From: Armatimonadota bacterium
Lineage (GTDB): Bacteria; Armatimonadota; Fimbriimonadia; Fimbriimonadales; Fimbriimonadaceae
NCBI GenBank assembly: GCA_017303935.1
Contig: JAFLBD010000002.1
Span: 1 to 64,000 of the forward strand
Length of the DNA stretch: 64,000 nt
Reading direction: 5' to 3'
The notes beneath the pieces were generated by a model. The model worked only from the letters and a program-made list of their open reading frames with translations, had not been told where the DNA came from and did no database searches. The translations under genes and the position numbers were made by a program. Below are positions 41,466 to 61,109 of the stretch, piece after piece (position 1 is the first letter of the stretch; each line of letters begins with the position of its first letter).

Positions 41466-42281
41466 CTGAAAAGACTTCAACTCATCGTCGCCTATGATGG
41501 CACTGACTTCTGTGGATGGGCCCCGCAGAAAGATCAACGAACGGTCCAAAGTACATTGACAGATATCGTGCGCCAGGTCTCGGGCGAAGATTGCGAGATC
41601 ATCGGAGCAAGCCGCACCGATTCAGGAGCTCATGCTGATTACCAGGTGTGTCATTTCGACACGAACTGGAAAGCAGATCCTGTTCAGATTCCCAGAATCT
41701 TGAACAACATGCTCCCGCAAGATATCGGGATTCAAAAAGCAAAGTTCGTCCCGGACTCGTTCCATTCGAGATTTAGTGCGGTTGATCGAACATATCGCTA
41801 TCGAATTCGGCAATCTCCTCGAAATCCAAATATCTCGCGGTTTACCCACGACTACTGGAAAAAGCTAGACCTAAAAGCTATGCAGGAAGCATCGAAGTGC
41901 TTGGTTGGAGTTCATGACTTCAGAGCATTTAGCGAGGAAGTCGAACCAGAAGCAAACGCAATTCGAGAGATTTTTGAGATCAATGTCCGAGGCGCCGGGA
42001 GAGAAATCTGGATCGACATTCGAGGAAACGCATTCATGCGAGGAATGATGCGCAGAATCAGTGGAGGACTCTTCGAAGTCGGCCGAGGTCGACGTCCAGG
42101 AAGCGACATCGCAGGATTGCTCGATTTGGAAAGGCGGGAAACCATCCATTGGCCGGTTGTCCTACCCGCGAAAGGACTTTGCCTCAAAAACATCCGCTAT
42201 GGACGGCATCCTAGAGATTTCCGATCACGATATCAACAAACAGATTTGACGGGAGAAATCCCTCACTTGGAGAACAAATGA
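41466..42281 (+). CDS. truA: tRNA pseudouridine synthase A, with a non-standard start codon
   Basis: Makes pseudouridine at tRNA positions 38-40. The conserved N-terminal strand RLQLIVAYDGTDFCGWAPQ and the catalytic-aspartate motif GASRTDSGAHA are in one frame, as is the C-terminal NAFMRGMMRRISGGLFEVG. The frame is closed at TAG 41451-41453, and there is no ATG, GTG or TTG before a TTG at 41556, which would remove the essential first 30 residues. The best candidate is CTG at 41466, giving 271 residues (the E. coli enzyme has 270). It overlaps rplM by four bases. Confidence 0.85.
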   Translation: MKRLQLIVAYDGTDFCGWAPQKDQRTVQSTLTDIVRQVSGEDCEIIGASRTDSGAHADYQVCHFDTNWKADPVQIPRILNNMLPQDIGIQKAKFVPDSFHSRFSAVDRTYRYRIRQSPRNPNISRFTHDYWKKLDLKAMQEASKCLVGVHDFRAFSEEVEPEANAIREIFEINVRGAGREIWIDIRGNAFMRGMMRRISGGLFEVGRGRRPGSDIAGLLDLERRETIHWPVVLPAKGLCLKNIRYGRHPRDFRSRYQQTDLTGEIPHLENK

Positions 42282-46938: not shown

Positions 46939-46947
46939 TGCTATACT
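46939..46947 (+). promoter_or_regulatory. Extended -10 promoter of PEP-CTERM gene 1
   Basis: TGC-TATACT with no good -35. The same TGC-plus-box layout (TGCTAGAAT) occurs before PEP-CTERM gene 2, with similar upstream words (GAATTTGCA and GAATTTGGA). Confidence 0.6.
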
Positions 46948-46953
46948 CGTAAC

Positions 46954-47013
46954 GGTCCAAGGTGTAGGTTGTGGTGTATGCCCAGCTTACATGAGAGTAT
47001 TTGGACCGGGCAT
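46954..47013 (+). promoter_or_regulatory. Leader RNA of PEP-CTERM gene 1, pseudoknot topology
   Basis: GGTCCAA (46954-46960) can pair with TTGGACC (47001-47007), and ATGCCC (46978-46983) with GGGCAT (47008-47013). The order A-B-A'-B' with A' and B' adjacent is that of an H-type pseudoknot. It starts at about the predicted transcription start and ends 35 bases before the ATG. Pairing inferred by eye. Confidence 0.5.
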
Positions 47014-47048
47014 CCAAAGTCCTAGATGAATAGTTAGAGGTTAGACTT

Positions 47049-47693: not shown

Positions 47694-47729
47694 CTTTAGC
47701 TCCAGAACAACTACTCATCTGGACAAACA

Positions 47730-47770
47730 GGGATGGCAAGTGCAAACTTGCCATCCCTTCTTACTTTTCC
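47730..47770 (+). terminator. Terminator of PEP-CTERM gene 1
   Basis: GGGATGGCAAG-TGCAAA-CTTGCCATCCC followed by TTCTTACTTTT. Confidence 0.85.
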
Positions 47771-47835
47771 ACCCGGCTTAAATACCAGGTTGTCTCCGAA
47801 ATCCTGGTTATTTACAGGTTTTCTTCAACAACTCC

Positions 47836-47864
47836 TTTGAATTTGGACCGACCTATGCTAGAAT
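47836..47864 (+). promoter_or_regulatory. Promoter of PEP-CTERM gene 2
   Basis: TTTGAA (47836-47841), 17-base spacer, TAGAAT (47859-47864) with TGC extension just before it. Confidence 0.65.
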
Positions 47865-47873
47865 GATCGTGTT

Positions 47874-47918
47874 GACATCCGACCTGGTTGCACTTGAAGG
47901 GCAATCACCGATGATGTC
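47874..47918 (+). promoter_or_regulatory. Leader hairpin of PEP-CTERM gene 2
   Basis: Outer stem GACATC/GATGTC (47874-47879 with 47913-47918), a symmetric internal loop, and an inner stem GGTTGC/GCAATC around CACTTGAAGG-type loop sequence. An alternative local hairpin ACCGA/TCGGT overlaps it. It ends before GAAGAGG, the ribosome binding site. Confidence 0.5.
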
Positions 47919-47936
47919 GGTTTGAAGAGGTTTACT

Positions 47937-48680: not shown

Positions 48681-48711
48681 TATAATTAAAGGACTAGGTT
48701 CTGCAGAACCT
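48681..48711 (+). promoter_or_regulatory. -10 box and palindromic leader hairpin of PEP-CTERM gene 3
   Basis: TATAAT at 48681-48686, followed by the perfect 16-base palindrome AGGTTCTGCAGAACCT (48696-48711), which would fold as a hairpin at the very 5' end of the mRNA. No clear -35. Confidence 0.6.
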
Positions 48712-48728
48712 GGAAAGGACTGGTTATT

Positions 48729-60098: not shown

Positions 60099-61109
60099 AT
60101 GAAGATCCTCATCGTCAAATTGAGCGCGATTGGCGATTGTCTTCATGCAACACCCGTGGCCCGAGCATTGCGCCAGACGTTTCCCGATGCAAAAATTGGA
60201 TGGGCGGTACATCCCCACTGCGCTCCAATTCTGGAGGGAAACCCGGACCTCGACGAGATCCACCTGATTCCACGAAAAAAGTTCTTCCGGGAATTTCCGC
60301 GAGCAATTTTGCCCGTTCGCCGGGAGAAGTACGACATCGCCATCGACTTACAAGGATTGATGAAATCAGGACTGGTCACCAAGCTTTCGAGCGCACCGAA
60401 GCGTATTGGGCCGGTTGAAGCTAAAGAGGGCGCACGAATGATGTACAACTTTCGCGTCGCTCGGGACAATGCGAACCTGCATGTGGTCGATGGGTACCTA
60501 AAATTGGCCGAAGCCGCTGGAGCAAAAGTTGTCCCAGCACCTCAAATGGTATTGCCGGACCGCACGGAGGACAAGCTTCAAATTGACAATCTCCTATCTG
60601 AGATTGGTATCGTCCCTGCCGATCGCTTGATCGTTTTGAATCCTAGCGCGGGCAGAGACATCAAACAGTGGCCGGCAGAGAGATTTGGAGAGCTTGCCCA
60701 TCAAATTCGGTCCAAATTTGATGCCAAGTTTCTGATCACAGGTGCTCCAGCAGATGCTCATCTCGCAGAGAGAATTCTATCGGCGTTTCCCGATGCCATC
60801 AACCTCACTGGCAAAACGAGCCTCACTGGCATGGGTGAATTGCTTCGAAGAGTTGAGCTATTTGTTGGCGGCGACACCGGCCCAATGCACATGGCTCAAG
60901 CCGCTAGCACTCGGGTGGTCGCGATTTTTGGGCCAACAAATCCAAAAACGCTTGGTCCGACCTTACCGATTCATCGCGTCGCCTATAACCGACAACCTTG
61001 CTCACCTTGCCGACACCGGGAATGCCCGATCGGCCGCCCTTGCCTGAATGATCTGGGCGTACAAGACGTCTATCAGTTGTGCGCCGAGATTTTACAAGAA
61101 CTGGACTGA
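60099..61109 (+). CDS. Glycosyltransferase family 9 (heptosyltransferase-type)
   Basis: 336 residues, GT-B fold. [19 protein letters not shown] and the C-terminal [16 protein letters not shown] with [14 protein letters not shown] are the GT9 signature of ADP-heptose:LPS transferases. It probably adds a sugar to lipopolysaccharide or surface glycan. TAAACT ends seven bases before the ATG, so the mRNA may be leaderless. The longer upstream frame is a shadow of the opposite gene. Its TGA overlaps the ATG of the following pseudopilin. Confidence 0.9.

Follow-up and report, generated by a model that had tools for sequence, protein, structure and literature searches.

Most PEP-CTERM genes form single-gene units preceded by large upstream regions (Haft et al, 2006; PMC1569441). 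A sigma-54/PrsR motif was found at such genes in Proteobacteria only, and many PEP-CTERM upstream regions, within and outside Proteobacteria, were left unexplained in that study (Haft et al, 2006; PMC1569441). RpoN dependence has been demonstrated experimentally for pepA (PMC9850573). At the RNA level, stabilizing 5'-terminal stem-loops are known from ompA and papA of E. coli and aprE of B. subtilis; in B. subtilis, mRNA becomes more stable when a hairpin lies at the 5' end or close to it, and in E. coli a 5' hairpin added to a transcript impedes RppH and stabilizes the transcript (PMC3997798). Our literature search found no regulatory scheme for PEP-CTERM genes in the phylum Armatimonadota, and no literature on PEP-CTERM in combination with an untranslated region or with Fimbriimonas.

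Here, we analyze the leader of a PEP-CTERM gene (gene 1) from an Armatimonadota bacterium, together with the leaders of two neighboring PEP-CTERM genes (genes 2 and 3). All three lie in one window, which is the whole stretch of 64,000 nucleotides that was analyzed. The features of the region are as follows.

46939–46947, forward strand: extended −10 promoter of gene 1, TGCTATACT, with a poor −35 element
46953–47008, forward strand: predicted 5'-terminal hairpin of the gene 1 leader, minimum free energy −26.5 kcal/mol, z −5.55
46953–46961 with 47000–47008, forward strand: outer stem of this hairpin
46954–46960, forward strand: strand A, GGTCCAA (RNA GGUCCAA), 5' side of the outer stem
46962–46971 with 46983–46992, forward strand: inner stem, 10 bp
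46973–46975 with 46980–46982, forward strand: apical stem, closing the loop 46976–46979
46978–46983, forward strand: strand B of the proposed pseudoknot, ATGCCC (RNA AUGCCC), mostly paired within the hairpin
47001–47007, forward strand: strand A', TTGGACC (RNA UUGGACC), 3' side of the outer stem
47008–47013, forward strand: strand B' of the proposed pseudoknot, GGGCAT (RNA GGGCAU)
47014–47048, forward strand: 3' part of the leader, weakly structured, with a purine-rich TTAGAGG close to the start codon
47049–47693, forward strand: PEP-CTERM gene 1, 214 aa, with a signal peptide-like N-terminus and a C-terminal PEP-CTERM motif
47729–47758, forward strand: terminator-like hairpin after gene 1
47870–47936, forward strand: leader of PEP-CTERM gene 2, which forms a nested hairpin starting at 47872 (weak, z −0.67)
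48693–48728, forward strand: leader of PEP-CTERM gene 3, with a 5' hairpin (CU)AGGUUC-UGCA-GAACCU(GG) (z −2.17)

The product of gene 1 matches PF07589 at residues 191–212 (E 1.1e-6, 28.9 bits, cut-off 20.7) and TIGR02595 above its cut-off; its signal peptide was judged by eye from the N-terminus. The 2.6-Mb genome to which the window belongs contains 57 PF07589 matches over cut-off. Since a terminator-like hairpin follows the gene, gene 1 is probably transcribed alone. Its transcription start, predicted from the position of TATACT (46942–46947), lies about 5–7 nt past this element, at approximately 46951–46954, which would leave 0–3 nt before strand A and the first base of the hairpin. A preliminary description of this DNA had reported a structured leader, some 95 nt long, ahead of a PEP-CTERM gene, in which two perfect complementary pairs of 7 and 6 bases follow an extended −10 promoter in the order A-B-A'-B', with A' adjoining B'. 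All of these elements are present as described, and the leader is indeed structured. The A:A' helix grows to eight Watson–Crick pairs (CGGTCCAA/TTGGACCG), or nine with a G-U pair, and the extra G of the eight-pair form is also part of B'.

The interleaved pattern is not rare and by itself means little in a read of 64 kb: 7 + 6 interleaved pairs occur in 77 of the 2663 96-nt segments of the window (2.9%), and 74 of 10,000 dinucleotide-shuffled versions of the gene 1 leader contain them as well. The feature that stands above chance is the nested hairpin 46953–47008, rather than this pattern. Minimum-energy folding yields a simple hairpin for the leader, with energies of −26.5 to −30.8 kcal/mol, an outcome that the preliminary description had itself named as evidence against a pseudoknot. 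The hairpin has approximately 22 bp with A:A' as its base, two bulges (one U and the seven bases 46993–46999), and an energy of −26.5 kcal/mol compared with −12.4 ± 2.5 in shuffled sequences, none of which was as stable (0/200). Among 127 leaders compared, that of gene 1 ranks third most structured. The inner 10-bp helix, which is absent from the preliminary description, is a competitor of B:B', and four of the six bases of strand ATGCCC are paired within the nested fold, which leaves the region of the start codon clear.

That the leader forms an H-type pseudoknot from A:A' and B:B', acting as a switch or riboswitch, is a proposal that has to be weighed against this hairpin, and we consider it very improbable. 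The helices are perfect, their 3' strands are adjacent, and the two 17-nt loops would make the fold sterically possible. In addition, A:A' retains five of seven pairs in the one orthologous leader, one of them through changes on both sides. However, we estimate the pseudoknot at about −19 kcal/mol, approximately 7 kcal/mol weaker than the nested fold; this value adds the stacking energies of the two helices to a coaxial-stacking term and the customary pseudoknot penalty, with approximate figures for the last two. In the nested ensemble, B:B' has a probability of 1.7e-8, in a model that is unable to hold both helices at once. Furthermore, the inner helix would be complete before A' and B' are transcribed, two of the four comparable B:B' pairs are broken in the orthologue, and interleaved pairs are not in excess across the PEP-CTERM leader set (7 observed, 4.9 expected). 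An Rfam search of the whole window returned a tRNA only, with no match in the gene 1 leader. The pseudoknot was thus rejected on energy, order of synthesis, the orthologue, and group statistics, and the riboswitch suggested earlier found neither an Rfam match nor a conserved sequence. The leader shares the strand order A-B-A'-B' with the H-type pseudoknot riboswitches of the preQ1 and SAM-II classes; unlike these, it has long loops, no conserved core or Rfam match, and a much more stable nested competitor.

Gene 1 has one complete syntenic orthologue, in the congener G003 (locus L003), with 43% protein identity. The orthologue adjoins a divergent sugar-nucleotidyltransferase-like gene in the same place as gene 1, and an identical TGCTATACT is found at the syntenic position in the congeners G003, G001, and G004. 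The G003 leader is shorter and largely different in sequence. The preliminary description had proposed covariation as a check on the pairs; in this single orthologue, no two-sided change was found in B:B', a result that leans against the pseudoknot, and the test is weak because the genomes examined contain just two orthologous leaders in full. The G003 leader forms two different hairpins, with a stability that is not out of the ordinary (z −0.30), and a consensus fold of the two leaders gave no credible common structure. A search for the leader DNA in 85 genomes of the family returned, apart from the window itself, only two matches, both short and weak; a scan of genome contigs with gene 1 as the query found no relative. 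As the G003 leader folds differently and the leader is absent from the other family genomes, the exact structure is not conserved. In G001 and G004, no gene 1 orthologue was found, and the contigs of both (L079 and L080) stop at the same base within the gene 1 leader, which suggests variable or repeated sequence at this point.

These comparisons bear on one alternative, namely that both the hairpin and the interleaved pairs are neutral, with nothing acting on them. The lack of conservation across the 85 family genomes, the different fold of the orthologous leader, and the frequency of 7 + 6 interleaved pairs all favor neutrality, which we nevertheless regard as somewhat unlikely in view of the z-score of the nested hairpin and an excess of structure across PEP-CTERM leaders as a group.

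This excess emerged from a comparison of PEP-CTERM leaders with those of other genes, prompted by the hairpins that genes 2 and 3 likewise carry downstream of their promoters. From the genome of the window, the data set comprised the window, the PEP-CTERM loci, and 20 stretches of 20 kb each. Sixteen relatives, 15 of them in the same family and one in the same order, contributed 40 stretches of approximately 20 kb around PEP-CTERM genes. Identical rules for open reading frames, starts, and promoters were applied to both groups (promoter score ≥ 6.5), and the first 60 nt were folded. The median z was −1.27 for PEP-CTERM leaders (n = 54) and −0.15 for leaders of other genes (n = 73; P = 5e-6), a contrast that would be inflated if the predicted promoters were misassigned more often in controls than in single-gene PEP-CTERM units. 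The contrast persists in relatives only (P = 4e-4), in leaders of similar length (P = 4e-5), with the genes of the window left out (P = 4e-5), and in a fixed stretch from −70 to −12 before the start codon (P = 7e-4). About one-third of the PEP-CTERM genes examined were uninformative, either because they lacked a good promoter or because their leader was very short. The hairpins of PEP-CTERM leaders share no common sequence or shape, and perfect helices of at least 7 bp are no more enriched in them than in controls.

Individual leaders vary. In the same genome, a 16-bp 5' hairpin is present in the PEP-CTERM leader upstream of the gene at 953 of locus L193, and the PEP-CTERM leader at 210–275 of L045 contains, by eye, an apparent three-way junction, GGTGTT-[ACCTAC..GTAGGT]-[TGGGGCATGA..TCGTGCCCCA]-AACACC. 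A separate PEP-CTERM subgroup (L134, L137, L139, L163, L174, L178, L184, L185, and L186), whose mature proteins begin with SFDL or SFEL, has a TTATACT-like −10 element just 4–8 nt or so before the ATG; its mRNAs should therefore be leaderless, unlike the structured leaders.

For gene 1, the reading that we favor, at roughly even chances, is that the leader carries a stem-loop at its 5' terminus comparable to those of ompA and aprE, which would stabilize the mRNA of a surface protein. With transcription starting about 5–7 nt past TATACT, the first pair of the hairpin would lie at the 5' end or at most about 3 nt from it, and the ribosome-binding region, some 30–40 nt beyond the hairpin, would be left weakly structured. 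Enzymes that require a free single-stranded 5' end, namely a pyrophosphohydrolase, RNase J, and RNase E/G in its 5'-end-dependent mode, would be hindered by such a hairpin, which would thereby prolong the life of a transcript whose product, a surface protein, is made in abundance. The genome encodes a J-type RNase (TIGR00649, 489 bits), an RNase E/G (PF10150, 355 bits), and RNase Y (494 bits), all over cut-off. The hairpin near the 5' end, the weakly structured ribosome-binding region, and the terminator-like hairpin would together suit a stable single-gene mRNA. Strong 5' hairpins in the leaders of gene 3 and L193 also count in favor of stabilization, while the leaders of the G003 orthologue and gene 2 count against it; because the first is not unusually stable and the second only weakly so, selection on the particular hairpin of gene 1 does not follow from the comparison. 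An mRNA stabilizer was among the options named in the preliminary description. We infer the transcription start, the high expression, and the stabilizing effect alike.

A different role for the same RNA, as a binding site for a regulatory protein or small RNA or as a device for translation control, would make gene 1 a leader-regulated gene. The hairpin is strong, bulged, and asymmetric, lies ahead of a surface-protein gene, and belongs to a single-gene transcription unit, all of which favor this role; yet the absence of a shared sequence or shape among PEP-CTERM leaders and the unoccluded start-codon region make this role unlikely. The inverted repeats could also act as DNA, forming an operator just past the promoter, for example through the gapped palindrome TTTGGA-CCGGGCA-TCCAAA at 47000–47018. 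The sequence TTTGGACCG occurs four times in the window compared with 0.5 expected (47000–47008, 47842–47850, 41542–41550, and 60708–60716), and two of these copies lie in promoter or leader regions of neighboring PEP-CTERM genes, the second in the promoter spacer of gene 2. However, the remaining two copies lie elsewhere, and TTGGACC was seen, by reading rather than by counting, in none of the other listed PEP-CTERM promoters apart from an upstream terminator, so that the chance of an operator seems close to negligible.

Another upstream element was observed on the DNA of many PEP-CTERM genes. The motif TACCAG(G/T)TTT is located on the same strand, 60–190 nt ahead of many PEP-CTERM starts, with sites near 47783 (gene 2) and 48658 (gene 3) in the window and at L019, L023, L031, L018, and L225. 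It was found at 14 of 105 PEP-CTERM genes and 7 of 317 controls (P = 4e-5, unadjusted). With the motif held fixed, 7 of 17 genes of outgroup families carried it, and 0 of 17 on the opposite strand, in a set where some genes are close kin and two loci come from the first set. This motif is a possible activator site, with a role that may be comparable to that of the proteobacterial PrsR site.

Taken together, the leader of gene 1 is ordinary when viewed singly; of more interest, though mildly so, is the excess of structure seen in leaders across the family. Tentatively, and with doubt prevailing, we propose that PEP-CTERM genes of Fimbriimonadales-like bacteria are selected for sequence-unrelated 5'-terminal hairpins that keep the mRNAs of exosortase cargo long-lived, gene 1 being among the strongest cases. 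Should this trend hold, many surface proteins in a little-studied phylum would be controlled in common at the level of mRNA stability.

Compared with the proteobacterial PrsR/sigma-54 system, the PEP-CTERM genes described here likewise form single-gene units with long non-coding upstream regions, whereas the promoter looks sigma-70-like and has an extended −10 element, and it is the transcribed leader that shows the excess of structure. In contrast to ompA, papA, and aprE, the 5' end is a predicted one, the PEP-CTERM hairpins differ between genes in both sequence and shape, and the Armatimonadota-like host combines RNases J, Y, and E/G. In common with these three genes, gene 1 encodes an exported or surface protein; its leader is predicted to have a stable hairpin at the 5' end or a few nucleotides from it, and the ribosome-binding region downstream is weakly structured.
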